Shown here one piece after another: positions 22,820 to 64,000 of a stretch of 64,000 nucleotides of DNA (within the stretch, counting starts at the first letter, position 1; each line of letters begins with the position of its first letter). The stretch comes from Elusimicrobiota bacterium (lineage in GTDB: Bacteria; Elusimicrobiota; Elusimicrobia; UBA1565; UBA9628): the NCBI GenBank assembly GCA_016218575.1, contig JACRDN010000010.1, forward strand, positions 1 to 64,000, given 5' to 3'. Both the position numbers and the translations under genes were made by a program. Under the pieces are notes generated by a model. The model had not been told where the DNA came from. It searched no databases and was given only the letters and a program-made list of their open reading frames with translations.

Positions 22820-22820
22820 C

Positions 22821-25919: not shown

Positions 25920-26417
25920 ATGACCTCTACGAACCCCAAGGACGCCTCCGAGCTGAGCCTGCGCCTAGACGTGAAGGCAGAGGGCATGGAGCCGATCCTC
26001 GCCGCCGCCTATCTCATGACCGACCGGGCCTACGTCCGCGTTTCTGGGGACCGGGAGAAGACCTTGGAGGTTTGCCTGGCCGCCAAGCGGCCGGAGTTTC
26101 TGTTCCCGGAGGCCCTGGCCGAGGCCTTCAAGCGCGAGCTCGCGACACAGAAGGTGCGCTGGGCCGTCGCCAAGAACAATCTGCCGGTGAGGGAATTCGT
26201 GGCCGAGCAGGCGGTGATGCTTGCCAACGGCCAGCTTCCGCCCGAGCCGCAGCCCGCAGAGCCGCCCCCGGACCAGCTCTCGGATGAGCAGCGCCGGGAG
26301 ATCGAGAAGCTTATCGCCGAGGTGGAGGAGGAGATCAAGACCCTCAACCAGAAGAAGGCGGTGCCCGACCCGAAGAACATCAAGGCTTCCTGGGAAGAAA
26401 AAAGAAGCCTCTCATGA
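25920..26417 (+). CDS. hxsD: HxsD-like protein 3
   Basis: A 165-residue protein and the clearest HxsD match of the set: ILAAAYLMTDRAYVRVSGD near residues 25-45, an FPEALAEAFKRELATQKVRWAVAKNN helix and NLPVREFVAEQAVML, corresponding to the family's LLNDYxLRE region. The last 60 residues are a Pro/Glu/Lys-rich charged tail predicted to be helical. It is separated by 49 nt from the preceding gene and overlaps hxsB by 4 nt, the standard hxsD-hxsB coupling. Its role is probably as partner of the maturase; no catalytic motif is visible. Confidence 0.7.
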   Translation: MTSTNPKDASELSLRLDVKAEGMEPILAAAYLMTDRAYVRVSGDREKTLEVCLAAKRPEFLFPEALAEAFKRELATQKVRWAVAKNNLPVREFVAEQAVMLANGQLPPEPQPAEPPPDQLSDEQRREIEKLIAEVEEEIKTLNQKKAVPDPKNIKASWEEKRSLS

Positions 26418-27943: not shown

Positions 27944-28416
27944 TGGAATTTGAAATAGACGAAGAAGAGCGGACCGTGAGCTTCGAGGCCTGCGCCAAGG
28001 CGTATTCTTTGGATGCCGTGCAGATCTCGGCCCACATCTTCTCGGGGCGCGCGAACGTGTTCCTGGACCGCTCGGAGGATGCCTTCGAGCTCGCCTTGCA
28101 GTCCAAGAAAAAGAGCGCCGCCGCGGAGTTGGAGGTCCTGGCCAGGGAGTTCTTGAACGAGATGCTCAACCAGGAGTACCGCTTCGTGGTCGGGGCCTTC
28201 AACCGGAAGATCTCCAACCTCATCGTCACCCAGGCGCTTCTGGCGGCCCGTGGTGGGGAGGCGGCGCCCGCCTCGGGAGAAGAAACGGATGAGTTCAAGG
28301 TCTTCGCGGCCCGGCTCATGCGGGAGGCTCAGGAGGAGATCGCCAGGACCATGCCGAGGAAAATCGCGCCCCAGGGAGCCCCAATTCCGCCCCCGGCGGA
28401 GGATGCGAGTGTCTAG
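27943..28416 (+). CDS. HxsD-like protein 4
   Basis: A 157-residue protein starting inside the stop of hxsB (TAATG). The core CAKAYSLDAVQISAHIFSGRANVFLDR corresponds to the YSLEAV...AAY...RA.V of HxsD, followed by FLNEMLNQEYRFVVGAFNRKISNLIVTQALL. The C-terminal 50 residues are charged and Pro-rich. The conserved AAY is replaced by AHI, so it is a divergent copy. It overlaps the second hxsB-like gene by 14 nt, forming the third D-B pair of the locus. Confidence 0.65.
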   Translation: MEFEIDEEERTVSFEACAKAYSLDAVQISAHIFSGRANVFLDRSEDAFELALQSKKKSAAAELEVLAREFLNEMLNQEYRFVVGAFNRKISNLIVTQALLAARGGEAAPASGEETDEFKVFAARLMREAQEEIARTMPRKIAPQGAPIPPPAEDASV

Positions 28417-29863
28417 GCTGACCGAGCTCGAGACCCCGTCCGTCCCCAAGGCCGAGCGGGTCGCTCAGCACAATTTCCGGGTTCGAGGCTCGAAAGTCCT
28501 CGTCACCAACGAGGCCGGGGAGTTCGCAGCACTCTCTGCCGAGGACTACCGCCGCTACTTGACCGGAGAGATCGGGCCGGACGACACCCTGGCCAAGGGG
28601 CCGGGCGGCCTCATACAAAAGGAGTTCCTGAGGGACCAGCTGGATTTCCGGGTCCTGGCCGGGGCGAGCGTAGACAAGAACCTGCTCGATTGGAAAGGCC
28701 CCAACGTCCATACGGTCGTGGTGACTTTGCGCTGCAATTTCAAATGCGCGTACTGCCATGCGAGCGTCGTGGACCTTTCCAGAACCGACAAGGACATGAG
28801 CGTGGAGACGGCCCGCCAAGTGGTGGAGCTCATTTTCCAGAGCCCAAGCCCGTCGCTCATGATCGAGTTCCAGGGAGGAGAGCCGCTGCTCAACTGGCCC
28901 GTCGTGAAGTTCATCGTTGCCTATGCCAGGAAGAAGAACGAGGCGGCCAAGCGCTCCCTTCATTTCGGCCTTATCTCCAATTTCAGCCTGCTGACCGACG
29001 AGGTGGTCGCGTGGGCCGAGGAAAACGGAGTCTCCTTCTGCACATCCCTGGACGGGCCCGAGGATCTGCACAACCGCAACCGCATCCATTTGGGCGGCAA
29101 TACGTACCAAGAGGTGACGGCCGGCCTGAGAAAAATCCAAGAGCGCAGGCGACAAGGGGCCAAGCTCGACGCCCCCAACGCCATCTGCACCGTGACCCGC
29201 CAGTCTTTGCCCCGGGCCAGGGAAATCGTGGAGGAGCTGTCGGGGCTGGGCCTTGAGCGCATCCAGGTCGGGCCGCTCGACCCCATTGGGTTTGCGGCGC
29301 GGGCTTGGGACAAGATCGGATACGGCGCGGAGGAGTTCGCGGCTTTTTACGCCGAGGTCCTGGACTCCCTGATCGAGCTCAACCGCAAAGGGGTGAAGGC
29401 CTACGAGAAAATGGCCCTCATTTTCCTCATTCGGATATTGGAGAAGGGCCATTGGCGCTTCCCGAACGCCGACGCGCTTTGCCGCCTGGCCTACAACCAC
29501 GATGGCGACGTTTACACTTGCGAGGAGGGACGGCTCTTGGCCAACGAGGGGGACGAATTCTTCAAGATCGGCCGAGCGGGAGAGTCGAGCTACGCGGAGC
29601 TTTTGGACCATCCGACGGTAAGGGCCTCGCTCATGGCAGCCAGCCCAAATTGCCAGCCTCTGTGCTTCCAATGCGCCTACAACCCGTACTGCACGGTTTC
29701 TCCCGTTTTCAACCACCGGACCCAGGCCAGCCTCTGGGGGCAATTTACGTCCAACGCCTGGTGCGGGAAGATGATGGGAATTTTCGACGTTCTATTTGAA
29801 AGGCTCGAGGATCCGGAGGCCAGGAAGGTCCTCGAGTCGTGGCTCGAGTACAAGGACCGCTAA
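28403..29863 (+). CDS. HxsB-like radical SAM/SPASM maturase 2
   Basis: A 486-residue paralogue of the 26414 protein. The N-terminal 105 residues (HNFRVRGSKVLVTNEAGEFAALSAEDYRRY...) look like a PqqD/RRE-type leader-binding region. The radical SAM motif is C111-x3-C115-x2-C118 (LRCNFKCAYCHAS), then EFQGGEPLLNWPVVKFI and TSLDGPEDLHNRNR. The SPASM-like region has LAYNHDGDVYTCEEGRL and QPLCFQCAYNPYCTVSPV. I chose ATG 28403, which leaves a 14-nt overlap with the HxsD-like gene; GTG 28409 is possible. Its stop is 14 nt before the precursor gene, so it is the maturase nearest the substrate. Confidence 0.85.
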   Translation: MRVSRLTELETPSVPKAERVAQHNFRVRGSKVLVTNEAGEFAALSAEDYRRYLTGEIGPDDTLAKGPGGLIQKEFLRDQLDFRVLAGASVDKNLLDWKGPNVHTVVVTLRCNFKCAYCHASVVDLSRTDKDMSVETARQVVELIFQSPSPSLMIEFQGGEPLLNWPVVKFIVAYARKKNEAAKRSLHFGLISNFSLLTDEVVAWAEENGVSFCTSLDGPEDLHNRNRIHLGGNTYQEVTAGLRKIQERRRQGAKLDAPNAICTVTRQSLPRAREIVEELSGLGLERIQVGPLDPIGFAARAWDKIGYGAEEFAAFYAEVLDSLIELNRKGVKAYEKMALIFLIRILEKGHWRFPNADALCRLAYNHDGDVYTCEEGRLLANEGDEFFKIGRAGESSYAELLDHPTVRASLMAASPNCQPLCFQCAYNPYCTVSPVFNHRTQASLWGQFTSNAWCGKMMGIFDVLFERLEDPEARKVLESWLEYKDR

Positions 29864-29877
29864 TCGAGGAGGACGCC

Positions 29878-30327
29878 ATGGCTGAGAAAAAACCGAAGGA
29901 CAAGAGCAAGGGAAAGAAGAAGAAAAAGCCGGAGCTCTTGCCCCAGCTCAAGAAGGACGCCTCGGTGTTCCTAAGCAGCGAGGAGGGGAAAATCACCAAG
30001 GAGAACGTGGTCAAGACCGCGACGGCGCTTGGCATCATCGGCGCCGCCCTCTTGAAGGCCGCTCCGGCCCCCGCCCAGCACTCCAACTACCTCCACAACT
30101 CCGGCGGCACCGGCTCGCATGTGAGCCACGGCTCCCATGGCTCTCACGGCTCGCACGGTTCGCATGGCTCCCACGGCTCCCACGGCTCGCACGGTTCGCA
30201 TGGCTCCCATGGTTCGCATGGCTCCCACGGCTCCCACGGTTCACATGGCTCCCACGGTTCCCACGGTTCACATGGCTCCCACGGCAGTCATTGCCGCGGC
30301 GGCTGGTGCTGCCCACGCTGCTTTTAA
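29878..30327 (+). CDS. hxsA: HxsA-type RiPP precursor: (Ser-His-Gly)n repeat with Cys/Trp tail
   Basis: A 149-residue peptide with a strong GAGGAGG ribosome site 5 nt before ATG 29878. Residues 1-18 are Lys-rich; 27-62 are an amphipathic then hydrophobic leader (LSSEEGKITKENVV, TALGIIGAALL); APAPAQ at 63-68 could be a processing site. Residues 80-138 are 20 consecutive Ser-His units, 18 of them SHG, opening with SHV. The tail, residues 139-149, is CRGGWCCPRCF with four Cys and one Trp. This is the His-Xaa-Ser repeat layout of HxsA, with an additional Cys-rich end. It sits directly between radical SAM genes, which should modify it. Product and activity are unknown. Confidence 0.88.
   Translation: MAEKKPKDKSKGKKKKKPELLPQLKKDASVFLSSEEGKITKENVVKTATALGIIGAALLKAAPAPAQHSNYLHNSGGTGSHVSHGSHGSHGSHGSHGSHGSHGSHGSHGSHGSHGSHGSHGSHGSHGSHGSHGSHGSHCRGGWCCPRCF
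30115..30291 (+). repeat. 9-bp minisatellite coding Ser-His-Gly in hxsA
   Basis: Twenty tandem units of the type TCN-CAY-GGY. Third-codon positions vary in a higher-order pattern: a 36-bp block (30148-30183) begins again at 30184 for at least nine codons, and an 18-bp TCA-containing block recurs near 30240 and 30267. This points to growth by block duplication. Confidence 0.85.
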
Positions 30328-30330: not shown

Positions 30331-31440
30331 ATGGCTGCGGCGCCGAATCATTTGGCGGTTTATCTTTCCAACCGCTGCAATTTGGCCTGCAGCTACTGCT
30401 ATGTCTCGGTCAACCAGGGGGCGCCGGCTCATCTAAGCTTCGAAGACGTCAAGGAATCGGTGGATTATTTCCTGGACGAGGTGCCTGGCGCGGATAAGAA
30501 GATCACCTTCTTGGGAGGAGAGCCCTTCCTCAATTTCCCGCTCTTGGAGCGCATGGTCCGGCACGCGCGCTGGAGGGGCGGGGAGAGCCTGGTCCTGCAG
30601 ACCTTCACCAACGGGACGCTCCTGACTCCGGAGAGGCTGGAGTTCCTCAACGACTACGAGGTCTACGCCACGATCAGCCTGGACGGAACCCAGCGCACCA
30701 ACGACGCCAAGAGGTTCTTCCACGGCGACAAGGACCGCTCTGTTTTCGCCGAGGTGATGGCCCGGCTCAAGGACATCCCCAAGGACAATTTGGGCGTGAG
30801 TCTGGTGTTTAACTCCGGGAGCGTGGGAGAACTCCTGCCCAACATCGATTTTTTCTACCGCATGGGCTTTGGCCGCATCACCTTCAATCCCGAGCTCTAC
30901 GAGGCGTGGTCCCTGGAAAGCTTGGAGGTTCTTAGGGGCGTGATGCAGGGCTTTGCTCGCTATTACCGCTTAATTTTGGAGAAGAACATGCGACCCTTCG
31001 TGATTCCCATCCTGTTCTCGGTTTTGGAGAATGCTCCTAAAAATGCCGCGGGTGAGCGTTGGTGGCACGACTGCCACAACGTGGTCCTCGGCCCGGACAA
31101 GCAATTCTACGCCTGCGACAAGGCCTTGAGCTTCCCGATCGGGGAGGCCGAGGGCCAGAAAGTGGGAAACGCCGCCGCGGGAATGGATTGGGACAAAAGG
31201 CAGGAGCATTTTCGCGAGGCGGCGCAGTACATCGAATCCCGCGGCTGGGGCAAGGACGAGTCCTTCTGCCCCATGGGCGTGTATTTCCACAGCCGCCAGG
31301 CGGGGGCGGATCCCCAGCCGGCGCTTGAGAATTTCCACAGGGTAGGCGAGCTCTTCGCCGAGAGCCTGGTGGGACTGGCGCGCGCGCTCGAGGGCCATCC
31401 GGTTTTTGAGGAGCTTTATGTCCGGCCTCGCCTCGTCTGA
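30331..31440 (+). CDS. Radical SAM enzyme with twitch/SPASM-like C-terminus, next to the precursor
   Basis: A 369-residue protein starting 3 nt after the precursor stop. C16-x3-C20-x2-C23 (SNRCNLACSYCYVS), FLGGEPFLNF, TNGTLL and ATISLDGTQRTND are textbook motifs of peptide-modifying (anSME/SPASM-type) radical SAM enzymes. The C-terminal third has Cys at HDCHNVVLGPDKQFYACDKAL and FCPMGVYFHSR, an irregular auxiliary-cluster set. The 31418 and 37238 proteins are paralogues. Position right after hxsA makes it a prime candidate to act on the repeat or the Cys/Trp tail. No RRE-like N-terminal domain, so it may depend on partner proteins for substrate binding. Confidence 0.85.
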   Translation: MAAAPNHLAVYLSNRCNLACSYCYVSVNQGAPAHLSFEDVKESVDYFLDEVPGADKKITFLGGEPFLNFPLLERMVRHARWRGGESLVLQTFTNGTLLTPERLEFLNDYEVYATISLDGTQRTNDAKRFFHGDKDRSVFAEVMARLKDIPKDNLGVSLVFNSGSVGELLPNIDFFYRMGFGRITFNPELYEAWSLESLEVLRGVMQGFARYYRLILEKNMRPFVIPILFSVLENAPKNAAGERWWHDCHNVVLGPDKQFYACDKALSFPIGEAEGQKVGNAAAGMDWDKRQEHFREAAQYIESRGWGKDESFCPMGVYFHSRQAGADPQPALENFHRVGELFAESLVGLARALEGHPVFEELYVRPRLV

Positions 31441-32542
31441 TGCCCCGAGCCTTGCGGGGGGGCTTGCCACCAACAAGGAGATCCGCCGCTTCAAGGTGGC
31501 AATCAACACGGCGTGTCCCCTGCGCTGCGAGTACTGCTTCATAGACAAGGAGTCTGGCGAGGTCGTGTCCTGGCCGGTGGTTCAAGCCCTCATCGGCTTC
31601 ATGCTCTCCTCCCCGGGCCAAGTAAAAAAGCTCCTGATTTACGGCGGCGAGCCATTCCTTAAATTCGACCTGGCCCGGGAGATTGCCCTCTACGCCAGGG
31701 CCCGGGCCGCCGAGGCGAAGAAGGACCTCGACCTATCCATATGCACGAGCGGGGTGTCGGTTTCGCGCGGACAGCTGGAGTTCCTGCGTGACCAGAGCTT
31801 CTTCCTGTCGGTCAGCCTCGATGGCGGCGCCGAGACCCATGACCGGCGGCGGAGGCTCAAAAACGGAGCTGGAAGCTGGGCCCGCATCCGGCCCAACCTC
31901 GACCGCATCTTCGATGTGATGGGGCGGCGCCGCACCATGGCCATTCAATGCGTGCACCCGGACAACGTCGAGCGCATGCTGGAGAATTTCCAGGCCTTGG
32001 TGGGCATGGGCTTCGAGAACGTGGAGATAGAGGTGATCCATGGCTTCGGCTGGGAGAAGGCCCGGACGCTTTTCAGGCCCATGCTCGGTAAGGTCCTGGA
32101 GTGGGTATGGTCCGAGGCCCGGGAGGGCCGGAGGCGCTTCCTGGTCTGTTCCTTGGCGCCCTTGATGCTCAAGGAGGGGGTGATCCTCGAGGACCACTGC
32201 CCCTTCCATTCCTCCATGGAATGCTACCCGGATGGGAGCTATTCCTTCTACCCCTTCGCTTTCGTGGACTGGGAGGGCCGGCGCCGCTCGGCGGTGGGAA
32301 GTGCCAAGGGGGGGGTGAGCGAGCGCTACCGGGCCTGCGCATTTTCCGCCGAAAGCCAGGCCTGCCGCAATTGCACCGCGGACTACTACAGCAGCCCCGG
32401 CATCAACCAGGGAAACGATCCCTACCGCTGGCGCACGGAGATGGCTCGCGCCTTCATGGACCGCGTGGCCCTGGCCGCCAAGAGCGATCCCATGATGAGA
32501 GAGTACTTGCGTGAGGCCTTGGTGCGATGCCGGATCAGTTGA
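31418..32542 (+). CDS. Radical SAM enzyme with C-terminal Cys cluster
   Basis: A 374-residue protein. C33-x3-C37-x2-C40 (NTACPLRCEYCFID), IYGGEPFLKF, CTSGVSVS and LSVSLDGGAETHDRRRR are present. Auxiliary-type Cys occur in DHCPFHSSMECYPDGSYSFYPF and near ACAFSAESQACRNCTADYY. It is similar in layout to the 30331 and 37238 proteins but with a distinct C-terminus. The start ATG 31418 has a GAGGAG ribosome site (31408-31413) inside the preceding gene, giving a 23-nt overlap. Its end overlaps the large TPR-radical SAM gene by 16 nt. Confidence 0.82.
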   Translation: MSGLASSDAPSLAGGLATNKEIRRFKVAINTACPLRCEYCFIDKESGEVVSWPVVQALIGFMLSSPGQVKKLLIYGGEPFLKFDLAREIALYARARAAEAKKDLDLSICTSGVSVSRGQLEFLRDQSFFLSVSLDGGAETHDRRRRLKNGAGSWARIRPNLDRIFDVMGRRRTMAIQCVHPDNVERMLENFQALVGMGFENVEIEVIHGFGWEKARTLFRPMLGKVLEWVWSEAREGRRRFLVCSLAPLMLKEGVILEDHCPFHSSMECYPDGSYSFYPFAFVDWEGRRRSAVGSAKGGVSERYRACAFSAESQACRNCTADYYSSPGINQGNDPYRWRTEMARAFMDRVALAAKSDPMMREYLREALVRCRIS

Positions 32543-35500
32543 GGCTGAGCGGGCCGGGTCTTCTGCCCACGGCCTTGCGGGGCCTTATTAAGGCCAACCT
32601 CATCCATCACCTGGCCCACACCGGAGGCCGCCGGACCCTCATCGAGATCGGCCGCTCCTGCCGGATCTCCCGCGACTTGGCGCCGGTTGGGGATGGCGCC
32701 GGGTCCCCTGCGCTGCGCCGCGCGCTTTTGCGCTTGTGCCTGACCCCCACGCCCGAACTCAAGGCAAGCTCCCGGGACTTCGCGGAGCTTGAGTTCCGCG
32801 CCAAGCGCCCCGGGGAAGCCCTCTGGGCCCGCGTCGGCCTCGGCCTCAACTACCTGAGACTATGGGATGGCGACCGCTATTTCGCGCGAGCCTTGGACTG
32901 CTTCGAGCGAGGCCTTCACCTTCATCCGGACTGGGCCTGGGGGCATCTTCTGCGCGGGGAGGCCAAGAGGTCGTTGTTGGATTATCGGGGGGCCCTGGCG
33001 GATTATGAGCGGGCCTTATCGCTGGACCCCTCGTGGTCTTGGGCCCACGCCTTCAAGGCCCGCGTTCTTTTTCAGGCCGGGACCCGGGAGGAGGACCTCT
33101 CCTGCTTGGACCAGGCATTGAAACTAGAACCCGCCTGCGGCTGGATGCTGGCTTGGCGGGGCGAGGCCCTCCGCCGTTTGGGGCGCCTGAGGGAGGCCGC
33201 CGTGGATTTCAAGAAGGCTTTGAGGCGCGATCCCCTCTATGACCAGGCTTATTGCTGGAACGCTAAGCTCCTGGAGGCCCGGGGCGAAATTCGCCAAGCG
33301 CTGGAATCCTTGGACCGAGGAATCGCGATTTGCCCCGACTTCGAGAAGGCCCACCGCCAAAAGGTCCGGGTGTTGAGAAAGCTGGGGGAGGTGCCGCGGG
33401 CCTTGCGGGCCTTGAACCGCGCCGCGAGCCTCAACCACAGGAATAATTGGCTCGGGGCCTGGACGGCCGAGGGCCAGGAGTCCAGTCCAGAGGCCTTGGC
33501 CGCCCTGGAGGAACTCGAGGCCTTCGGCGCCGAGAATTCCGGCCATGCCTGGACTCTGGCCTGGCTCGGGGAAACCTTGGTCCAGCTTGGGAAATTCGAT
33601 CAAGCCCTTTCGTCCTTGGACAAGGCCCTGTCTCTGCCTCTCCCGCCCTCGGGCCGGGCCTGGGCTTTCTGCTGGAAGGGGGAATGCCTGTTGAGATCGG
33701 GGCGGGCACGCGAGTCCATCCCTTGTTTCAATCGGGCCTTGAGGCTGGACCCCGGCTACGCGCGGGCTTGGGCCTGGCGCGGCAGGGCCAAGGCCTTGGA
33801 GGGGTCATGGCGCGGGGCCCTCGCGGATTACCGCAAGACCCTCGCCGCGCGGCGCGTCGAATATTCCTGGATTTACGCCTGGAAGGCCGAGGCCGAGCTG
33901 GAGCTGGGGCTGTCCGGGCAGGCCCTCAAGGACTGCGACGCGGCCCTGGCCCTCGATTCCCGGCCGGCGGTTTTTCATTATTGGCGGGCCAAGGCTCTTT
34001 TGGCCGAAGGCCTTGTCGAGGAAAGCCGGGAAGAGCTGTTCCTCTCTTGCTCCGCAATGCAGACCTTCCCATGGCTCGAGGTCTGGAGGGCGGAAAAGGA
34101 TAGGCGGGATGGGCTCTTCACCGAGGCCCTGAGCCGGCTGGCTCCGATCGTAAAAAGGCACGGCCGGCGCTTCCCCTGGCTTTATCTCCTGCGCTACCGC
34201 GCCAAACGAGAAGCCTCTCTGCCGGGAGCCCTGCGCGACGCGGACCAAGCCATGCGCCTGGACCCGGACTGCGCCTGGATTTTCGGCCTGGCTCCGGTTC
34301 CGGCGGCCTTGGAGCCGCAGGGGTCCCTTTTCCAGGATATGGAGGGCCCCGTGGGGCCTCACTGCGGCCCGGTCCTGGCCTACCGTGGGCAGGCGCGTCT
34401 CCTCAAAGGAGAGGTCGGCGCGGGCCTGGCCGATTTGCGCCATGCCGCGCGGCTCGATTGCGCTGCTTGGATTTGGGCTTGGCTCGGGGAGGGCCAGAGG
34501 CACGCGGGTCTTCCGCGGGAGGCGGTGCGGGATTTGAGCCGCGCCGTGGCGCTGGATTGTGGCTACGCGAATTCCTACTCCTGGCGCGGCACCGCCTATC
34601 TTCAGCTCGGGCAATGGGAAAACGCGGCCCGGGACTTGGACCTCGCGGTCCGGCGCCGGCCCACGGCCCGGGCGTGGCTCGATCGCTCGCGCCTGCGGCG
34701 CCGGCGGGGCGATTTTACGGGCGCCTTGGCAGATCTTCACGAGGCCGCGCGCTTGAACAGCGAACTTTCCTGGGACAAGACCACGCCGGAAGCCCTCCAG
34801 GGGGCTCTGGCGGAGCTGGACTTGGCCATGGCCCGGCATCCCGAAGAGGCTTGGTTTGCGGCCTGGAAGGCAGAGGCCTTGATCCGTCTTGGACGGCCGG
34901 CCGAAGCCCTGCCCATCTTGAGCGACGCGCTCGAGAAAAACCCCGGCATGGCCTGGGCCCGGGCCTGGCGGGCGGAGGCGAGGCTTTTAAGCGAGGGCTT
35001 CTCCTCGATGGTGGAGGAGGATATCCGGCGGGGCCTGGCCCTCGATCCCGAGTACGCCCGCCTCCACGAGCTTGAGGCCGAGGTCCGCCTGCGCCGAGGC
35101 GAACTTTCCGGGGCTCTGGCCGCGCTTCGGCTCGCCGGGAGCCTCAATCCCTATTCCTCGCGCATTTGCCTGGCCCGCGCCAAGGTTCGGCTCAAGATGG
35201 GCCGGCGGGGCCAGGCCAAGAAGGATATCGAGAAAGCCCTCCGCCTCTGCCCGAGCTTCGCAGAAGCCAGCCAGCTATTGGCTCGGGTCGAGTCCGGGGC
35301 GCGAGTCCGGATCTTTTCGCTGCTTCCCGGCGGCCCCGGAAAGTCCATGGAGTTTTTCCTCAATTATTCCTGCAACGCCAAGTGCGCGTTCTGCTTCAAC
35401 CCTCCCGATGCGCTCCCGGAGCTCGAGCGCGGCTTGGGCTTCCAGGAATTGGCCGCGCGCCTCTGCCTGGGCTACGCCCGGGGCTATCGCGCCCTCAAAT

Positions 35501-36300
35501 TCATCGGCGGCGAAGCCACCTTGCGCGAGGATTTGCCCAGGCTCGTGGCTCTCTCCCGGCGCATCGGGTTCCAATCCGTGCAGATCACGACCAACGGCCT
35601 GCGCCTGGCCGATCCCGCCTACGCCCGCAAGCTCGTGGAGCTGGGCGCAGACAGCTTCCGTCTCTCGGTGCACGGCGCGCGGGCCGAGGTCCACGACCCC
35701 CAGGTGGGCGTGCCCGGGGCCTTCGCCAAGGTCGAGCGCGCGGTGGCCAACCTCAAAGGGCTGGGGGTCCGGCTCGGAGTCAATACGGTCCTCAATAAGC
35801 GCAACATCGCTGACTTTCCCGAAACCTGCCGCCATTTCTTCGAGGAGTGGGGGCTTGACGACGTGATCGCCTACTTCATGCGCTATCAGGGCTTCGCGGC
35901 CTTGCCGGCAAACCGCGAGGCCCTGAAGCTCAGCTTTGGCGAAGCGGTCCCGCGGGTGCGCGAGGCCTTCCGCCTCCTGGCCGCTGATGGGGTCGCGGCT
36001 CGACCGGCCTTGATCCATTTCCCGCCCTGCGCCGCGCCGGAGCTAGAGCCCTTCATGCTGGATTGGACGCGGGTTCCGGGGGAGTCCGGCCAGGGTCAGC
36101 GCCCCGAGGACCTCGTGACCTTGCCCGACGGCTCGGGCGGGCTCATACACGAGGTGACCAATAGCGGCAAGGCGCCGGTCGCGGCCTGCGCCTCGTGTAG
36201 GCACGCCTCCCGCTGCCTAGGGGTCGAGCGCGGCTACGTCTCGCTTTTCGGCGAGGGGGAGTTCCGGCCATTATCCGCCTTGGAGGCCGTCAAGGCATGA
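32527..36300 (+). CDS. Giant TPR-radical SAM fusion protein
   Basis: A 1257-residue protein. Residues about 95-930 are more than 20 tetratricopeptide-like repeats of a Trp-rich kind (for example WAWRGRAKALEGSWRGALADYRKTL). At residue 941 a complete radical SAM domain begins: C949-x3-C953-x2-C956 (YSCNAKCAFCFNP), FIGGEATLRED, ITTNGLRLAD and RLSVHGARAEVHD, ending with CASCRHASRC near the C-terminus as auxiliary cluster. The radical SAM part closely resembles the separate protein encoded by the next gene. The TPR part shares the SLNHRNNWLGAWTAE segment with the 41395 protein. The TPR array probably recruits substrate or partner enzymes. I know no characterised protein with this arrangement. Confidence 0.85.
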   Translation: MPDQLRLSGPGLLPTALRGLIKANLIHHLAHTGGRRTLIEIGRSCRISRDLAPVGDGAGSPALRRALLRLCLTPTPELKASSRDFAELEFRAKRPGEALWARVGLGLNYLRLWDGDRYFARALDCFERGLHLHPDWAWGHLLRGEAKRSLLDYRGALADYERALSLDPSWSWAHAFKARVLFQAGTREEDLSCLDQALKLEPACGWMLAWRGEALRRLGRLREAAVDFKKALRRDPLYDQAYCWNAKLLEARGEIRQALESLDRGIAICPDFEKAHRQKVRVLRKLGEVPRALRALNRAASLNHRNNWLGAWTAEGQESSPEALAALEELEAFGAENSGHAWTLAWLGETLVQLGKFDQALSSLDKALSLPLPPSGRAWAFCWKGECLLRSGRARESIPCFNRALRLDPGYARAWAWRGRAKALEGSWRGALADYRKTLAARRVEYSWIYAWKAEAELELGLSGQALKDCDAALALDSRPAVFHYWRAKALLAEGLVEESREELFLSCSAMQTFPWLEVWRAEKDRRDGLFTEALSRLAPIVKRHGRRFPWLYLLRYRAKREASLPGALRDADQAMRLDPDCAWIFGLAPVPAALEPQGSLFQDMEGPVGPHCGPVLAYRGQARLLKGEVGAGLADLRHAARLDCAAWIWAWLGEGQRHAGLPREAVRDLSRAVALDCGYANSYSWRGTAYLQLGQWENAARDLDLAVRRRPTARAWLDRSRLRRRRGDFTGALADLHEAARLNSELSWDKTTPEALQGALAELDLAMARHPEEAWFAAWKAEALIRLGRPAEALPILSDALEKNPGMAWARAWRAEARLLSEGFSSMVEEDIRRGLALDPEYARLHELEAEVRLRRGELSGALAALRLAGSLNPYSSRICLARAKVRLKMGRRGQAKKDIEKALRLCPSFAEASQLLARVESGARVRIFSLLPGGPGKSMEFFLNYSCNAKCAFCFNPPDALPELERGLGFQELAARLCLGYARGYRALKFIGGEATLREDLPRLVALSRRIGFQSVQITTNGLRLADPAYARKLVELGADSFRLSVHGARAEVHDPQVGVPGAFAKVERAVANLKGLGVRLGVNTVLNKRNIADFPETCRHFFEEWGLDDVIAYFMRYQGFAALPANREALKLSFGEAVPRVREAFRLLAADGVAARPALIHFPPCAAPELEPFMLDWTRVPGESGQGQRPEDLVTLPDGSGGLIHEVTNSGKAPVAACASCRHASRCLGVERGYVSLFGEGEFRPLSALEAVKA

Positions 36301-37241
36301 AGACCGAGGAGGCGGTCCACGAGCTTTTCCTCAACTACGCCTGCGGGGCTAAATGCCCGTTCTGCTACAATCCCCCGCTCACCCCGGAGCTCTTGAGGCG
36401 CGATCTCTCCTTCGAGCAGGCGGCAGAAAGCCTGTACGCCGCGGCCGGGCAAGGGCGGCGGCGGCTCAATCTCCATGGGGGCGAGGTCACCCTGAGAGAG
36501 GATCTTCCGAAGATCCTTCGCTTGGCCCGGAAGCTCGGCTTTGAGCAGGCGACCGTGGTGACCAACGGCATCCGCCTCGGCCGCCGCAGCTACGCGGGGG
36601 AGCTGGTGGCCGCCGGCGCGACCCATTTTCGCCTTTCCATCCACTCCGCGGATGCCGGAGTTCATGACGAGATCATGGGAGTCCCCGGCGCCTTCGACAA
36701 GGCCCTGTCGGCGCTGGCGGTCCTGCGCGAGCTCGGGGCGGGGGTGGGCCTTAATTTCGTGCTCTGCCGCCGCAACGCGGCGGCTTTGCCGGATTTTCTG
36801 GAAAGATTCTGCGTCGGGCTGGCGGTCCCTGAGGCGATCGTCTATTTTCCGCATCTCAAGGGCATGATGGCCTTGAATGCGGACGCTATCGGTCTGACCT
36901 ACGAGGAGGCGCTGCCTTCCGTCATGGCCGGGGCGGAGCGCTTGGCCCGGGCCGGCAGGAGCGAGGCCCTTTATCTGGCTAATTTTCCGCCCTGCGTCCT
37001 TCCGGATCTTGCCGAGCGCCTGCTCGACTGGGAGAGGGAAAGCGGGACGTCCTCGATGACCCATCCCGAGGGCTTCACCCAGGATCTCGAGCTGATGAAG
37101 GACGCCGCCCGCGGCCCGGTCGCGGCCTGCGCCGACTGCGCCTTGGCCGGGCGCTGCCGAGGTGTCGAGCGCGAGTACCGGCTTCGTTACGGGGAGAGGG
37201 AGTTCCTTCCCGTCCGCTGCGAGGGGGATATGGCTCTATGA
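36297..37241 (+). CDS. Radical SAM protein, paralogue of the TPR-fused domain
   Basis: A 314-residue stand-alone version of the radical SAM domain at the end of the preceding protein. C16-x3-C20-x2-C23 (YACGAKCPFCYNP), HGGEVTLREDLPKIL (GGEV instead of GGEP), VTNGIRL and RLSIHSADAGVHDEIMGVPGAFDKAL. ACADCALAGRCRGVEREY near residue 285 is the auxiliary Cys group. It starts in the stop codon of the TPR-fused gene (ATGA) and ends the same way into the next. Possibly both act as a heteromeric pair on the same substrate. Confidence 0.85.
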   Translation: MKTEEAVHELFLNYACGAKCPFCYNPPLTPELLRRDLSFEQAAESLYAAAGQGRRRLNLHGGEVTLREDLPKILRLARKLGFEQATVVTNGIRLGRRSYAGELVAAGATHFRLSIHSADAGVHDEIMGVPGAFDKALSALAVLRELGAGVGLNFVLCRRNAAALPDFLERFCVGLAVPEAIVYFPHLKGMMALNADAIGLTYEEALPSVMAGAERLARAGRSEALYLANFPPCVLPDLAERLLDWERESGTSSMTHPEGFTQDLELMKDAARGPVAACADCALAGRCRGVEREYRLRYGEREFLPVRCEGDMAL

Positions 37242-38257
37242 ATCTCCTGATTTTTCTCTCCAATCGTTGCAATATGTCCTGCGACTACTGCTTCCTGGAC
37301 TTGAACCGAGGGCCGGCCGCGGTCCTTTCCCCCAAGGCCGGGCGGCGCGCCATTCTCGACCATTTGCGGCGGCCGGGGGCTCAATTTACCTTTCTCGGAG
37401 GCGAACCCCTCATCCATTACCCGACCCTCCTGGAGTTGGCGGGCTTCATCAGGAGCCGGGGCCCTGCCGGAATCCGGGTGGTGACCAACGGGACCTTGCT
37501 CGACTCTGAAAAGCTCGCCCGCCTGCGGGCCCTCGGCGCCGAGATCTCGGTGAGCTTGGACGGCTCCGCGGCCGCGCATGGCCGGCACCGCCGCATCCTC
37601 AAGGACCCGTGGGACTGCGCCCTCTCGGAGGTTTTGCGTCGGATCGGGCCCGAGGATCGCCAGGGCTTGAACGTCAGCATGGTGCTCCGCGAGGACACCG
37701 CAGGGCTGCTTTTGAACGGCGTCGAATTCTTAAGGCGCGAGGGCTTTCGGCGCCTGAGCTTCCACTTAGACGTTCTCGAGGAGTGGAGCGAGGCGGGGCT
37801 GGCGACCTTGCGCGCAAGTCTTGAGGGCCTCTCGCGCTACCTCCGGACCCTGGCCAAGGCGGAGCCCGCGGGACTTAAGCTCGACCGTCTGCTTGCCCTT
37901 GTCTCGGCCCCGCCGGACTGCCGGAACGCGGATCACCCGTACGAAGACCTGGTCCTGGGGGCGGACGGACGGTATTACCCCTGCGATGGGCTTTTCGCCA
38001 GGCCCTACGGGGAGCTCGGAGCCTGGACCGCGGGAGACTGCGAGAACGGCGTGGACTGGGGCTTGCGCGAGTCCTTCCACGAGCGGGCCCGGCGCTTCAT
38101 CCACGAGCGCCTCGGAGGCCCCCGCGGCCATTGCCCGCGCGAAACCTATTTCCACGCATTGGCTTCTGGGCGCGACCCCGACTGCGCGGTGAGGGGGTTT
38201 CACCGGGCGGACGCGGCCTTTAGGCGGGCTCTCTCGGAGGCCTTGTGCCCGGCGTGA
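37238..38257 (+). CDS. Radical SAM enzyme, anSME/SPASM-like
   Basis: A 339-residue protein with C11-x3-C15-x2-C18 (SNRCNMSCDYCFLD), FLGGEPLIHYPTLL, VVTNGTLLDS and ISVSLDGSAAAHGRHRR. C-terminal Cys occur in DCRNADHPYEDLVLGADGRYYPCDGLF and GHCPRETYFHALASG, matching the 30331 protein (HDCHNVVLGPDKQFYACDKAL; FCPMGVYFHSR), so the two are paralogues with an atypical auxiliary cluster. It overlaps the flanking genes by 4 nt and precedes the first halogenase-like gene. It is likely another peptide-modifying enzyme of the locus. Confidence 0.83.
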   Translation: MNLLIFLSNRCNMSCDYCFLDLNRGPAAVLSPKAGRRAILDHLRRPGAQFTFLGGEPLIHYPTLLELAGFIRSRGPAGIRVVTNGTLLDSEKLARLRALGAEISVSLDGSAAAHGRHRRILKDPWDCALSEVLRRIGPEDRQGLNVSMVLREDTAGLLLNGVEFLRREGFRRLSFHLDVLEEWSEAGLATLRASLEGLSRYLRTLAKAEPAGLKLDRLLALVSAPPDCRNADHPYEDLVLGADGRYYPCDGLFARPYGELGAWTAGDCENGVDWGLRESFHERARRFIHERLGGPRGHCPRETYFHALASGRDPDCAVRGFHRADAAFRRALSEALCPA

Positions 38258-53120: not shown

Positions 53121-53202
53121 GGAGGCCTCGGAGGAGGGGGGCAGAATCGGGACCTCCACGGGTTTCGGCGGATTTCATTCAGTCTTGAGGTGAAGCATGC
53201 AA

Positions 53203-53208: not shown

Positions 53209-53225
53209 AGAATCTCGCCGCCCCA

Positions 53226-53372: not shown

Positions 53373-53458
53373 GCCCAAGGCCTTCCCGCGCGAGCTGCCG
53401 GTCTCACCTTTCCCGCAGCACCCAACGCCTTAAGCGCGGGGAAAGTTCCGCGGCTTGG

Positions 53459-57252: not shown

Positions 57253-57282
57253 TGAGGAGATAGAAAATATAGCATAACGCGC

Positions 57283-58536: not shown

Positions 58537-59733
58537 ATGACAAGGGCCGAACTGGACGGCCTTTTCAAAGAAGGCCGCCACGCCGAGGCCGTCGAGCTCC
58601 TCTCCCGCCGCTTGCGGCGGGCTCCCCAAGACGCCGCCGCCCTGGAGCGGCGAGCCGAGGCCTACCGCTGCCTGGGAGAGCACGAGAAGGCTCTCTCCGA
58701 CCTGGCGGCGAGGCTGTCTTCGGAGCCGGGAAATATTCAGGCCCTCGTGGCCCGCGGGGAGGGGAAAAGACATTGCGGGGACTATCAAGGCGCCATTGAC
58801 GACGCCGAGTCGGCGCTTTCCAAGGATCCCTCCGCGGCTTCCGCTTGGGTGCTTAAAAGCGAGGGAGAGCGGGGCCTGGGGCTTTGGGCGCGGGCGATCG
58901 CGAGCGCGGGCTCGGCCGCCCTCGCCGATCCGGCGTACTCCTGGGCCCTTATCGTCCGGGCTAAGGCCAAGCGCCATTCCGGCGACTGCGCCGGTGCCTT
59001 GGAGGATGTGAACGAGGCCCGGCGGATATCCCCGAATGATCCCTACGCGCGCGGCTGGAAGGCGGAGATCCTGCGCAAGCTGGGGCGCTTGGAGGAGTCC
59101 ATCTCGGAGATCGACGAGGCCCTCGCCCTTCAGCCGTCGTGCGCGTGGTTCTTGGCCCTCCGGGGGGAGGCCAGGAGGGAGCTCGGCTTCAAGGCCGAGG
59201 GTCTGGCGGATTTTCTTGAGGCCGTGCGCGTGGATGGGCATCTTTCATGCGCCTATGATTTCCTCGGCGCCGAGCCCGATGCGGTGCGCCGTGACAAGTC
59301 CCTGGCCTGGGTTTACGGTTGGCGGGGGGGCTTGCGGCGCGGTCGGGAGGAATTGGACGGGGCCGCGGCGGACCTCGACCATTGTCTCGCCCTGGATCCC
59401 GCCTGCTTCTGGGCCCTGGCCTGGAAAGGGGAGCTCTTTTTGAAGCAGGGCCGGTTTCCGGAGGCCCTGGCAAGCCTCTCTTCGGCGCTCGAGCTGTTCG
59501 CGGATTTTCCGCGGGCGCGGGTCTGGAAGGGGCAGGCCCATCTCATGGCCGAGGAGCCCGAGAAGGCCTTGCCGGAATTCGACGCGGCCTTGGCCTCCAG
59601 TCCGCGGGACGCCTGGGCTCATATCGGCCGGGCCATGGTCCTCGACAAGCTGGGGCGTTCGGGGGAGGCCCAGGAGGCTCTCGGCCGGGCCAGGGAGTGC
59701 GACCCGGGGCTCTTCGCCTCCGCCGGGGTTTGA
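58537..59733 (+). CDS. TPR protein
   Basis: A 398-residue protein built from about ten TPRs from the first residues to the end (LFKEGRHAEAVELLSRRL, AWVLKSEGERGLGLWARAIASAGSAAL, AWKGELFLKQGRFPEALASLSSAL). It is slightly less Trp-rich than the operon TPR proteins. A non-repeat insert at about 225-255 contains AYDFLGAEPDAVRRDKS. It has no export signal. It precedes the TPR-metallopeptidase gene by 4 nt and probably works with it. Confidence 0.72.
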   Translation: MTRAELDGLFKEGRHAEAVELLSRRLRRAPQDAAALERRAEAYRCLGEHEKALSDLAARLSSEPGNIQALVARGEGKRHCGDYQGAIDDAESALSKDPSAASAWVLKSEGERGLGLWARAIASAGSAALADPAYSWALIVRAKAKRHSGDCAGALEDVNEARRISPNDPYARGWKAEILRKLGRLEESISEIDEALALQPSCAWFLALRGEARRELGFKAEGLADFLEAVRVDGHLSCAYDFLGAEPDAVRRDKSLAWVYGWRGGLRRGREELDGAAADLDHCLALDPACFWALAWKGELFLKQGRFPEALASLSSALELFADFPRARVWKGQAHLMAEEPEKALPEFDAALASSPRDAWAHIGRAMVLDKLGRSGEAQEALGRARECDPGLFASAGV

Positions 59734-59737: not shown

Positions 59738-62230
59738 ATGCCCGCCAAGACCGCGGCGCCCGTCTGCGCGGACGCCTTGCCGCTTCGGGCCGAGGCGGCC
59801 TGGAGCCTGGCCGGAGAGGGTCCCCGCGCTCTTTTTTTTGAGGCCCGCCACGAGGAGGCCCTGGCCGCTTTAAACGATGCGATCGCCCTCGACCGCCGCT
59901 CGGGGCGCCTTTACGCCTTGAGGGCGGAGGCCGAGAGGACTCCCGTGGTGGCGCAATATTCCCGCTCCCTCGAGGATCTCGAAAAAGCCGCGGAGCTCGA
60001 GCCGGGGACCGCCTGGATGCTGGGATATCATGCCAAGGCCTTGGCCCAGTCCGGCCGGTTCGCCGAGGCCCAGGAGCGCCTGGGCCAAGCCTTGAAGCTG
60101 GCGCCGGAGTATGCCTGGATTCTGGCCGAGAAGGCGCTGGTGAGCTTGGCGCAGAATCGCGTCGAGCAGGGGCTTTGCGACGCGCGGCGGGCCCAGGAGC
60201 TCAATGCCTCCTCGGCCTTGTGCCGGTTGGCCCTGGCCGCGTGCTTGCGGCGGAGCGGAGAGAATTCCCGCGCCCTCGAGGCTTTGGAGGGCGTCGTGGG
60301 TCTGACCGAGGCCGGGGAAGGACGGGCGGTGGAAGGCTGCCGCCCGCCCGACCCCGATGAGCTGCGCTTCGAGCTCTGCCGGGCCCTGGGAGACTATCGC
60401 GGCGCCGCGGCGAGCCTCGAGCGCGCCGCGCGCGCGGGCCGCCGCATTCCATGGACGCAGGACTGGGAGGGTCCGCACGCTCTTGAGCGCGGCCTCGGGG
60501 AAGTGGACCGGGCTCTGGCGGCCTGCGGGCCCGGGCCTTGGCTGCATTTTTGGAGGGGCGGGATTCTGGCCGGCCTCGGCCGCCATAAGGAGGCTTTCCG
60601 TGATTTGGAGGCGGCCCTGGGCGCGGATCCCTCTTTTTCGCGGGCCTGGGCGCTTAAGGCTTGGCTTGGCATTCTCGCGGCGCAACCCAAGAATGCCCTG
60701 CGCGACGCGGAGAAGGCCTTGGAGCTTTCTCCGGACCGGGTGTCCCGGGCCCAGCTCCTCGGCCTCAAGGCCAGGGCTTTGGCGGCCTTGGAAAACTGCA
60801 AAGAGGCCGGGGCGCAGCTCGCCAAGGCCCTGGAGCTGGCCCCCGATAACTTCGCCTACCGCCTGAACAAGGCCGAGCTGGGGCTGGCCATGGGCCGGAT
60901 TACCGAGGCGGAGGAGGATTCCCGCCTGGCCTTGGACTTGAGGCCCGCCGACGCCCGGGGGCTCTTGCTGCGCTCCCAGCTGCGGCTTTTGCGCGGCAAC
61001 GCAGAGGGAGCCTTGAGCGACCTCGGGCAGGCCCTGAGGGCGGATGGGGGCTTCGCCTATGAAAGGATACGCGGGCTGCGCCGGCGGATGTCGAATTCCT
61101 CGGCCGAGCGCTTGGACGCGGCGGGGTGCTGGAGGGTGGAGTTCTCGGGCCCTTTCTGCCAGCCGCCGAGACTGGAGTGGCAAAAGCCGCAGGATATTCC
61201 CTCCGGACCCTTCCGTCAAGGCCGTCCACCCCGACCCCGCCGGGGCGGGGACCTCGGACGCGCGGGCGTGGACCCGTGCGTCGAGCTGGCCGGCCTCTTG
61301 AAGCTTCTTCTCACCCGTGATCCGGCTCCCGCCGCGGTGTTCAACCGCGCCTCCTGCGACCCGTCCTTCCTGGATCGGGTGCTGGAGCGCTTTTCTCCGT
61401 TCGTGGACGAGGCCCTCCTTGAGAGCTTCAGGGGCGTGGCGGAGGCCTCCGGGAACAGGAATTTTCCCTGGCTGGGAATCACGCAGATGATGCTAGGCCT
61501 TTCCGAGCCTCCCCGGCTTGCGGTCAGGACCACCGCCTGGCACAGGGGGGAGGATTTGGAGCTCTTGCGCCGCATACGGGAATTCGTGGTCAGGTCCGAT
61601 TACATGGAGTTTTTCCGGTCCTCATCGGATTTCTTCGAGTCTTGGGCGGCGCCGGCAAGGTCCGTGGTGGAGGGGGAGGCTTATTGCGACACCGTTTCGG
61701 CCTACATCGGGGTGGAGCTGGGCGCCTTCTACGACCTAGTGATTTCGACCTTGCTCAGGGACGTGGATTTGGACGCGCTGCTGGAGTTCAACGACGGCTC
61801 CCGCGGGGCCAGGAGCGTGGTCTGCCCCTTGAGCTCGGAGCCGGCCTACGAAAGAGCCTACCGCCGAGACCGCCTTCTTTGGAAGGGCTGGCACGAGCTC
61901 CTGCACCTGGCGGTGGATCATTGGAGGGGCTTCTACGAGGACGAGGTCGAGGCCCTCCACCCCCTGCACGCCCGCGTGGGGCCCGGGGCCAAGCGCAAGA
62001 GTTGGAGTGACTGCGTCTCGGAGCACATGGTCCGCGCCGCGACCCAGCGCATTCTCCTGCGGCGCCGCGGCGCCAAGGCCCAAGAGGCCCTGGCCGAGGA
62101 GGATCGCCTCAACGGCTACGTGTTCCAGGACGCGCTCGCGGCCGCCCTCGAGGAATACGAGAACAACCGGGCCCGCTATCCCACTCTCCTCGATTTTTTC
62201 CCCAAATGGCTGAAATGCTTGAGCTCGTGA
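59738..62230 (+). CDS. TPR protein fused to a HELLH metallopeptidase-like domain
   Basis: An 830-residue protein. Residues 1-450 are TPRs. Residues about 500-830 form a separate domain with H719-E-L-L-H723 (WHELLHLAVDHW), an acidic EDEVEALH that follows, and the downstream helix SEHMVRAATQRIL with E762 as a possible third zinc ligand; the ending ALEEYENNRARYPTLLDFFPKWL matches the C-terminal signature I associate with the DUF4932 family of HExxH proteins. Likely a zinc-dependent peptidase of the cytosol. In this context the natural proposal is removal of a RiPP leader; that is inference. The 5' end follows the previous gene by 4 nt. Confidence 0.72.
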   Translation: MPAKTAAPVCADALPLRAEAAWSLAGEGPRALFFEARHEEALAALNDAIALDRRSGRLYALRAEAERTPVVAQYSRSLEDLEKAAELEPGTAWMLGYHAKALAQSGRFAEAQERLGQALKLAPEYAWILAEKALVSLAQNRVEQGLCDARRAQELNASSALCRLALAACLRRSGENSRALEALEGVVGLTEAGEGRAVEGCRPPDPDELRFELCRALGDYRGAAASLERAARAGRRIPWTQDWEGPHALERGLGEVDRALAACGPGPWLHFWRGGILAGLGRHKEAFRDLEAALGADPSFSRAWALKAWLGILAAQPKNALRDAEKALELSPDRVSRAQLLGLKARALAALENCKEAGAQLAKALELAPDNFAYRLNKAELGLAMGRITEAEEDSRLALDLRPADARGLLLRSQLRLLRGNAEGALSDLGQALRADGGFAYERIRGLRRRMSNSSAERLDAAGCWRVEFSGPFCQPPRLEWQKPQDIPSGPFRQGRPPRPRRGGDLGRAGVDPCVELAGLLKLLLTRDPAPAAVFNRASCDPSFLDRVLERFSPFVDEALLESFRGVAEASGNRNFPWLGITQMMLGLSEPPRLAVRTTAWHRGEDLELLRRIREFVVRSDYMEFFRSSSDFFESWAAPARSVVEGEAYCDTVSAYIGVELGAFYDLVISTLLRDVDLDALLEFNDGSRGARSVVCPLSSEPAYERAYRRDRLLWKGWHELLHLAVDHWRGFYEDEVEALHPLHARVGPGAKRKSWSDCVSEHMVRAATQRILLRRRGAKAQEALAEEDRLNGYVFQDALAAALEEYENNRARYPTLLDFFPKWLKCLSS

Positions 62231-64000
62231 GCCTGGAGGCCGAGCTCGAGGCCTTGGGCTTCGACGGCGAGGCCGAGAACGTGCGCTGCCTGGCCGAAAT
62301 CCCGCGGGAGGCGGGAGGCTATGAAGAGGCCCTCTCCAAGATCGCCCGGTTCGAGGCGGATATTGGGGGATGCTCCGGAGATCTAGCGGCCCTGAAGGGC
62401 AAGGTCCTGATGTGTCTTGGACGCTTCGCCGAGGCGCGCACGGCGCTCTCCCGGGCCTCGCCCACGAAGTGGCCGGTTCATGCTTGGCTCGGGCAGTGCC
62501 TCATTCTTTCCGGAAAAATCCAAGAAGCCGCCGCCATCCTGGACCAGGCCCGCCGGCGGCGTCCGGACTACCCGTGGGTTTATTTTTTCAGAGCCTGCGT
62601 TTTCCTGGCCTCGGGAGAGCATGCCTCGGCCGAGCGCGAATCCGCGGCATTTTTAAAGACCGGGGAAAGGGCCTCGGCCCACGCCGTGAGGGCCTTGGCC
62701 CAGGCGCAGGCCGGGCGCCTGGAGGATGCGTTGGCGAGCATGGCCCGGTGCCGGCGTCTGGGCCCGGGAGAGGAATGGGCCCTGGCCTTGAGCCTCGGCC
62801 TTTGCCAGAGGACGCGGGATTTCTCGGGCGCTAGGAGGATGCTCGAGGAGGCCGCGGCCGCCAAGCCCTCGGCGTGGACTCGCGCGGAGCTCGCCAAGGT
62901 CTTTGAGACCCTCGGGATGCTGCCCCAGGCCATCGAAAACGCGGACGAGGCCGCTCGGCTTAAGCCGAGCCCGGCGCACCATGCCCTCAAGGCCCGCCTC
63001 CACGTCTGCTGGCGCGAGTACGCCCTGGCCGCCGAGGAGTACGGCCGGGCCCTGGCTCTCGATCCAGGCAACACGGCTATCCTCTTCGACCGCTCCAAGG
63101 CCTACTCCGCCGGGGGCGATTTGGCCAAGGCGCTCCAGGACGGCGAGATCTCCGCCGCCGCGAACGAAGACCCCCATTTGAAGGCTTGGCGCATCCAGCT
63201 CTTGATCCTGCTCGGCCGCGCCAGGCAAGCTCGGGCCGAGACGGCGTCTCTTCTCCGAGGAGGCAGGGCTCCGGCTCTTGACCGCGCCTTGGCCCGCTTT
63301 TGTCTCGGATACCTTGAGCTTTGCGCCGGGCGTTTCAAGAGCGCAGGGCGGGAGTTTCTCTCGGCCGAGAGGCTCGCGGAGGGCTCGGTGCTCTCCAAAA
63401 AGGCATCCTTCTATCGCGCGGCCGCCGGGGTCTTCTCGGCTCAGGGCCGGGCGCGGCCGGGCGGGGGGCTGAGCCTGATCGGCCTGGGTGTTGATCCGCC
63501 CTACACGGCGAGCTCCGAGTGCCTGCGCGAGATCCGCGCCTGCGACGTGGTCTTCAACAACGTGATGGGCGACGAGATGTTCGAGTTCCTGCGCCCCTTT
63601 TGCCGAGACTCCAGGCCCCTGGCCTACCACCAGAACGCGGACGAGGGCCGGCTCTCCGATGAGATCATGGCCGAGGTCCGCCTGGGCAAAGCGGTGGGTT
63701 TCGTGACCCGAGGCAACGCCTTGATCTACGGCCCGCTCGGCTCGGAGCTAATGGCCCGCTGCCGCCGGGCGGGCGTTTCCTGCCGCTGCCTGCCGGCGGT
63801 AAGCTCAGGAGAGCTGTTTGCCGCCAAGTTCGCGGCCGCCCGGCCCTGGAGGGCCGCTGCCGTGATGGACAGCTCGGCGGCGGGGGAGGTTCCGGACTCG
63901 GAGGGCCCGCTCACGGTGTTTCTCGACATGCGCATGTCGGGCCGCGATTACGAGGCCCTGTGCCGCAGACTCGCGGCCTCGCGCGGCCCCGAGCGCCGGT
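62206..64000 (+). CDS. TPR protein fused to a tetrapyrrole-methylase-fold domain (partial)
   Basis: An open frame of 598 codons that runs off the window. Residues 1-410 are about nine TPRs. From residue 420 a domain begins GGGLSLIGLGVDPPYTASSECLREIRACDVVFNN, then AYHQNADEGRLSDEIMAEVRLGKAVGFVTRGNALIYGPLGSELM and CRCLPAVSSGE: the order and spacing of the SAM-dependent tetrapyrrole methylase family (GLGxDP, AD-VF, GK-VGFVTxGNP-like, LPxVS). The same fold is used by borosin peptide N-methyltransferases, so peptide backbone methylation is a possibility. Start ATG 62206 overlaps the previous gene by 25 nt; ATG 62215 and GTG 62227 are alternatives. Confidence 0.72.
   Translation, partial: MAEMLELVSLEAELEALGFDGEAENVRCLAEIPREAGGYEEALSKIARFEADIGGCSGDLAALKGKVLMCLGRFAEARTALSRASPTKWPVHAWLGQCLILSGKIQEAAAILDQARRRRPDYPWVYFFRACVFLASGEHASAERESAAFLKTGERASAHAVRALAQAQAGRLEDALASMARCRRLGPGEEWALALSLGLCQRTRDFSGARRMLEEAAAAKPSAWTRAELAKVFETLGMLPQAIENADEAARLKPSPAHHALKARLHVCWREYALAAEEYGRALALDPGNTAILFDRSKAYSAGGDLAKALQDGEISAAANEDPHLKAWRIQLLILLGRARQARAETASLLRGGRAPALDRALARFCLGYLELCAGRFKSAGREFLSAERLAEGSVLSKKASFYRAAAGVFSAQGRARPGGGLSLIGLGVDPPYTASSECLREIRACDVVFNNVMGDEMFEFLRPFCRDSRPLAYHQNADEGRLSDEIMAEVRLGKAVGFVTRGNALIYGPLGSELMARCRRAGVSCRCLPAVSSGELFAAKFAAARPWRAAAVMDSSAAGEVPDSEGPLTVFLDMRMSGRDYEALCRRLAASRGPERR

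Follow-up and report, generated by a model that had tools for sequence, protein, structure and literature searches.

The window, i.e. the whole stretch of 64,000 nucleotides analyzed here (positions 1–64000 of the 68,586-base contig C10 from genome G000), ends inside a gene encoding a TPR protein with a C-terminal tetrapyrrole methylase (TP-methylase) fold domain. The initial annotation had found the domain reminiscent of borosin enzymes, which are methylases of peptide backbones. Our analysis assigns the domain, here named TPM_A, and two further ones encoded downstream (TPM_B and TPM_C) to an Elusimicrobiota family that is distinct from RsmI and is borosin-related, but not borosin, and the TPR protein carrying TPM_A is probably an uncharacterized peptide-tailoring enzyme. 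A literature search found no description of the product of a His-Xaa-Ser (Hxs) system, and nothing was found on Hxs clusters in Elusimicrobia.

Gene content of the Hxs cluster and the contig end

Genes were called in this high-GC DNA using our own codon-usage caller, which is not a published tool, and formed a plus-strand run from 17683 to 68463 (Table 1). The RiPP locus that had been claimed to lie nearby proved to be an expanded Hxs system, encoding two HxsB maturases above the curated cut-off and a precursor with HGS repeats. The precursor gene starts 14 bases past the second HxsB gene and its product has a Cys-rich end; close relatives are encoded in G291, G150, G189 and G257, and shorter variants found elsewhere end in HGSY, HGQW or SRGGWC. 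The radical SAM genes at 18519 and 20613 are HxsC-like, with 78 and 93 bits, respectively, both below the cut-off of 268. The cluster shares with known Hxs systems two HxsB proteins above the cut-off, HxsD-like and HxsC-like proteins and a precursor with HxS repeats, but differs in that the HxsC and HxsD matches fall under the curated cut-offs and in being much larger, with about ten radical SAM genes, SufS, two flavoproteins, many TPR proteins, a DUF4932 protein and the TPM family. A similar block (HxsC-like radical SAM, SufS, radical SAM genes, HxsD, HxsB, HxsD, HxsB, HxsA) is found in G257 and G150 and partly in G189, and in rearranged form in G110 and G221.

Table 1 Genes and domains of the Hxs cluster and the contig end (contig coordinates; the window ends at 64000).
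Feature	Position	Strand	Basis
Radical SAM genes 18519, 20613, 21848 and 22821	within 18519..23783	+	gene calls; family matches
SufS-type cysteine desulfurase	19346-20623	+	gene calls; family matches
HxsD-like protein	25920..26417	+	TIGR03976, 37.6 bits, below cut-off 50
HxsB radical SAM maturase, first copy	26414..27943	+	TIGR03978, 478 bits, cut-off 370
HxsD-like protein	27943..28416	+	TIGR03976, 45.2 bits, below cut-off 50
HxsB radical SAM maturase, second copy	28409..29863	+	TIGR03978, 412 bits, cut-off 370
HxsA-like RiPP precursor of 149 aa with a leader, 18 HGS repeats and the C-terminus SHCRGGWCCPRCF	29878..30327	+	sequence and homologues
Radical SAM genes 30331, 31418, 32527-36300 (TPR-fused), 36297 and 37238	30331..38257	+	CX3CX2C motifs, gene calls; family matches for 31418
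TPR protein, same gene run, upstream	58537..59733	+	gene call
TPR + DUF4932 protein, HExxH motif, metallopeptidase-like	59738..62230	+	PF16286, E 9.8e-15
TPR + TPM_A gene, 634 aa	62206-64110 (alternative start 62215); window part 62206..64000	+	TPR_19, PF00590, ORF and junctions
TPM_A, TP-methylase-fold domain	63469..64000 in window; domain end 64011, gene end 64110	+	PF00590, E 5.4e-12
TPR protein between TPM_A and TPM_B genes	64107-66173	+	gene call
TPM_B, stand-alone TP-methylase	66170-66943	+	PF00590, E 7.3e-8
TPM_C, TPR + TP-methylase domain	66940-68463	+	PF00590, E 1.5e-9

Further genes of the run merit description. The first one (17683-18438) encodes a secreted-looking protein without a Pfam match, with TLTTYYPAPSG near its N-terminus and MLCCPCGGACP at its C-terminus; proteins in the corresponding position ahead of other Hxs blocks (G150 11571, C17 227599, G221 49584, G110 85443) also end in a Cys-Cys motif, and the protein is possibly a second substrate. 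Of the two flavoproteins (38245-39972 and 50763-53120), the first matches the tryptophan halogenase family PF04820 (E 4e-30) and a TPR part forms the C-terminus of the second; the resemblance of both to CmlS, QhpG and LodB is below the cut-off. Between them (39969-50766) lies a continuous series of at least six genes for large TPR proteins. Several of these are mutual paralogues, and the order is conserved among relatives in G150 and G166 and partly in G257.

TPM_A lies 32 kb from the precursor, and given the gaps in the gene run at 53120-53459 and 56483-57283 the methylase block may be transcribed separately from it. The initial annotation had ended with the window; the remaining contig up to 68586 contains the rest of the TPM_A gene, amounting to only about 36 residues of the protein, and two more TP-methylase domains. 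The proteins carrying TPM_A and TPM_C end at the domain, and that of TPM_B extends only some 35 residues past it. As the genes across 62215-68463 have mutual 4-base overlaps and no internal stops, there is no space for a small gene between the TPM genes. The downstream search for a core peptide that had been proposed was thus unsuccessful, with neither a fused core nor a small borosin-type precursor gene found beside the TPM domains on the contig up to 68586.

The DUF4932 gene is located directly upstream of the TPM_A gene and overlaps it, and a sequence search of DUF4932 against solved structures gave no match. A DUF4932 protein is encoded at most two genes from a TPM-family member in five genomes (G000, G291, G189, G257 and G181), with HExxH in several copies. 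Four TPM-family members occur in a row both in G189 and in G217, and in G291 four are encoded in a stretch of five to six genes; one of these is either fused to a sugar-epimerase-like protein or its neighbor. These recurring neighbor arrangements argue for a common process.

Other proteins were also observed in these surroundings. The product of the gene at 57283-58527 is rich in Cys, probably starts with a signal peptide and matches no Pfam family. In G257 its relatives are encoded next to TPM genes and in G291 close to flavoprotein genes, and a similar protein adjoins a TPM gene in G217. A tandem of three proteins, each about 255 aa long and phytanoyl-CoA dioxygenase-like by eye only, is encoded near TPM genes in three genomes (G291:C1:1652241-1654540, locus L040; G189:C10:164476-166766, L043; G181:C53:9505-11832, L050).

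A TP-methylase family separate from RsmI and the corrin enzymes

The description of the window's last gene as a TPR protein with a TP-methylase-fold domain at 63460-64000 was borne out, as TPM_A matches the Pfam TP_methylase family PF00590 with 46.5 bits against a cut-off of 27.8 over residues 422-602 (63469-64011), C-terminal to TPR repeats matching TPR_19 (PF14559, E 3.5e-18). The predicted GLGxDP motif is present as GLGVDP in the first SAM loop (GLSLIGLGVDPPY). The second loop, FVTRGNALIYG, has GNA instead of the G[HN]P usual in the family, making TPM_A the least likely of the three domains to be active, and judging from this substitution it may be inactive.

None of the three domains reached an NCBIfam equivalog, the best score being 17.6 bits for CobM/CbiF (cut-off 259.65). 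The whole genome encodes five TP-methylases: RsmI, an RsmI-like protein on C17 and the three TPM domains. RsmI is a 16S rRNA 2'-O-methyltransferase, and the true RsmI of this genome is encoded on C11 and matches TIGR00096 with 207 bits, a model that the TPM domains do not reach. Since none of the five is a corrin enzyme, the genome has no corrin-type TP-methylase, and the remaining 4.6 kb of the contig contain no corrin genes either, which agrees with their claimed absence nearby. In a phylogenetic tree, the RsmI proteins formed a group of their own (support 99/94), as did the corrin enzymes (97/86), with the TPM family outside the RsmI group despite the shared Pfam family. Both assignments were therefore rejected: a corrin enzyme for want of an equivalog match and of any corrin TP-methylase in the genome, and RsmI for being a separate gene in a separate tree group. 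A grouping with RsmI or a corrin-pathway enzyme and corrin genes downstream were what the initial annotation had named as speaking against its reading, and neither was found.

A profile built from the three TPM domains retrieved relatives within the Elusimicrobiota, of which 40 were included in the family alignment (A2) and 52 were used for residue counts. A profile search using a narrower alignment (A3) found only Elusimicrobiota, a result that does not exclude other phyla; the six named relatives among them all belong to this phylum, to which the G000 genome was assigned on that basis. The TPM family joined the borosins in the tree at a support of only 47/48, and the alternative joins with the corrin enzymes (p 0.17) or RsmI (p 0.52) were not rejected.

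Comparison with borosin structures and catalytic residues

When the A2 family profile was compared to all PDB sequences, the best full-length matches were the borosins dbOphMA (1.6e-19), OphMA, MroMA and the split type IV enzyme SonM (3.6e-16), followed by CobA (1.5e-15). Diphthine synthase (Dph5), a protein-modifying TP-methylase of the same fold, came next, but was matched over the first half only (7e-14) and more weakly than the borosins. With narrower profiles borosins still came first, by small margins (SonM 4.5e-7 vs. CobA 3e-6; MroMA 0.0013 vs. precorrin-3 methylase 0.0017), whereas a profile restricted to TPM_A, TPM_B and TPM_C gave about equal matches to diphthine synthase (1.4e-5, its best single match), CbiF (7e-5) and OphMA (9e-5). 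TPM_A on its own matched PDB entries weakly throughout (best CobA, E 0.013), and it is therefore through the family that it is linked to borosins.

An AlphaFold model of a full-length orthologue (locus L076, pLDDT 85) pointed in the same direction as the family profile: the best 50 Foldseek rows were all borosin enzymes, and the VIA Z scores of SonM (19.5) and OphMA (19.2) exceeded that of the first non-borosin (16.2). The model of the TPM_A domain as truncated by the window (pLDDT 78) gave a Z of 19.0 over 114 residues vs. 15.9, and in its Foldseek list borosins were interspersed with CysG and CbiL. Judged by both the family profile and the predicted fold, the nearest solved structures of the TPM family are thus the borosin alpha-N-methyltransferases (OphMA, SonM), ahead of the corrin and siroheme enzymes (CobA/CysG, CbiF, CbiL), which have the same fold and rank second by both measures (Z 16.2 and below). 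In the comparison with OphMA and CobA/CbiF that had been suggested, borosins ranked first with the family profile, but the three TPM domains of this contig taken alone did not discriminate. In a reverse search, the G166 member matched OphMA with 29% identity (E 4.3e-12), and it had no relative among plasmid records. A common fold with borosins is no demonstration of function.

Miller and co-workers reported a roughly 100-fold lower catalytic efficiency for the SonM variants R67K and Y71F (PMC8429565), and this Arg/Tyr pair corresponds to R72/Y76 in OphMA. As comparators we used OphMA and ten plasmid-borne relatives, which were taken as borosin-like on the basis of similarity only. Numbered as in OphMA, Y66 and Y76 are present in 11/11 and R72 in 10/11 comparators, in contrast to 2/52 (Y66) and 0/52 (R72 and Y76) in the TPM family. 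The segment harboring the pair, which connects the third strand to the next helix, is shortened to 27-43 residues compared to 43-45 in the comparators. TPM_C has an R-x3-Y motif with its register off by one residue which, as it is not kept in relatives, may be due to chance, and TPM_A and its orthologues retain a tyrosine just before the missing segment. The SAM-loop positions are conserved as in borosins, with G18 in 52/52, G99 in 47/52, P101 in 49/52 (Ala in 2/52) and S129 in 50/52 members, and by analogy to the fold SAM would be bound at these positions.

The TPM family therefore resembles the borosins in Pfam family, fold, SAM-loop positions and the presence of a RiPP precursor system nearby, but differs in lacking the Arg/Tyr pair and a fused core or borosin-type precursor, in its fusions to TPR arrays and in that the nearby precursor consists of hydrophilic HGS repeats. 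With the catalytic pair and the precursor, the two defining features that can be tested in sequence are missing, and the family is for this reason not called borosin; canonical membership was ruled out. What stood of the proposed borosin likeness is the proximity to the solved borosin structures.

Association with HxsB and possible functions

The co-occurrence of the family with HxsB was surveyed in 294 genomes of the phylum, counting members with E <= 1e-9 as confident; weak matches (E above 1e-6) were left out because two that were checked (G144:C11 and G207:C46) grouped with RsmI. HxsB was found in 76/294 genomes and a confident TPM-family member in 33/294, and all 33 of the latter also encode HxsB (Fisher 7e-23, uncorrected for shared descent and hence overstating the strength of the co-occurrence). 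Within family f1, two or more HxsB copies were found in 8/9 genomes with TPM members vs. 1/15 (p 1e-4). In G150 a TPM member is encoded between two Hxs radical SAM genes, and in G221 one lies between HxsB and HxsA, starting 85 bases past the former and ending about 1.4 kb ahead of the latter; in other genomes the members are farther from HxsB or, in many cases, on different contigs. A TPM member and HxsB share a contig in 8/32 fragmented genomes (p about 0.003 to 0.1 at assumed chance rates of 0.08 to 0.15), so that co-location is weak evidence. Within the phylum the family thus occurs only in HxsB genomes, in up to several copies per genome and often with a metallopeptidase-like partner, which offers a handle on the fate of the peptide.

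Starting from the domain, its fold and family, its link to Hxs genomes and the loss of the Arg/Tyr pair, we consider the TPM domains to be TPR-docked, SAM-dependent tailoring enzymes for the Hxs peptide whose pocket differs from the borosin one, at a probability of roughly 0.45. We infer SAM binding, catalysis, substrate and docking as the most likely steps. The three TP-methylase-fold domains at the end of the expanded cluster, two of them on TPR proteins, would bind SAM, and the TPR part would dock them onto the HxsA precursor with its 18 HGS repeats or onto partner maturases. Methylation of the peptide would then be embedded in a succession of radical SAM, flavin and metallopeptidase-like reactions. 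The substrate pocket would be remodeled, with the segment of the Arg/Tyr pair shortened or replaced, and the methylated atom need accordingly not be a backbone amide.

The proximity to borosin structures by profile and fold, including the match of the G166 member to OphMA, would also be expected of a true backbone alpha-N-methyltransferase acting on the Hxs or another peptide, with other residues replacing the Arg/Tyr pair, for which the off-register motif of TPM_C and the tyrosine of TPM_A and its orthologues might be candidates. This is unlikely, however, as R72 and Y76 are absent from every member, the TPM_C motif is absent from relatives, no core or small precursor gene lies beside the overlapping genes, and the His-Gly-Ser repeats of HxsA differ from the mainly hydrophobic borosin cores studied (PMC11285071). 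The universal loss of the pair, the many divergent TPR-fused paralogues, such as the rows of four in G189 and G217, and the missing proline in the second loop of TPM_A would instead suit a non-catalytic scaffold, in which the fold is retained for binding a partner, a peptide or SAM, with the TPR-TPM proteins building the maturation complex. Conservation of the SAM-loop positions in 47 to 52 of 52 members would be unexpected if SAM binding had been lost, and we regard such a scaffold as improbable.

A methylase of some other substrate (RNA, a cofactor or another protein) that is found in the same genomes by coincidence would fit the joins with RsmI or the corrin enzymes that the tree does not reject, as well as the near-chance frequency of shared contigs, with member and HxsB on different ones in most fragmented genomes. 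It is nonetheless quite improbable in view of the co-occurrence in all 33 genomes, the copy-number link in family f1 and the two in-operon cases, and RsmI and the RsmI-like protein are separate genes in a group of their own in a genome devoid of corrin TP-methylases. A more specific version of tailoring by TPR-docked enzymes, in which the family would be a novel RiPP methyltransferase class that arose from the borosin fold, is devoted to HxS repeat peptides and methylates the repeats (at the backbone amide or the histidine side chain) without the Arg/Tyr pair, is rather doubtful. If the family does methylate peptides, the use of the borosin fold would be widened to another kind of RiPP, with a different catalysis, and this would be useful for making N-methylated peptides.

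A second, separate Hxs system is present in the same genome (G000:C17:227599-243469; loci L160 and L161). It comprises HxsB and HxsA genes of its own, the latter at 231172-231615, along with about seven for radical SAM enzymes, and ends in the gene of the RsmI-like TP-methylase (242756-243469), which is immediately preceded by a radical SAM gene.
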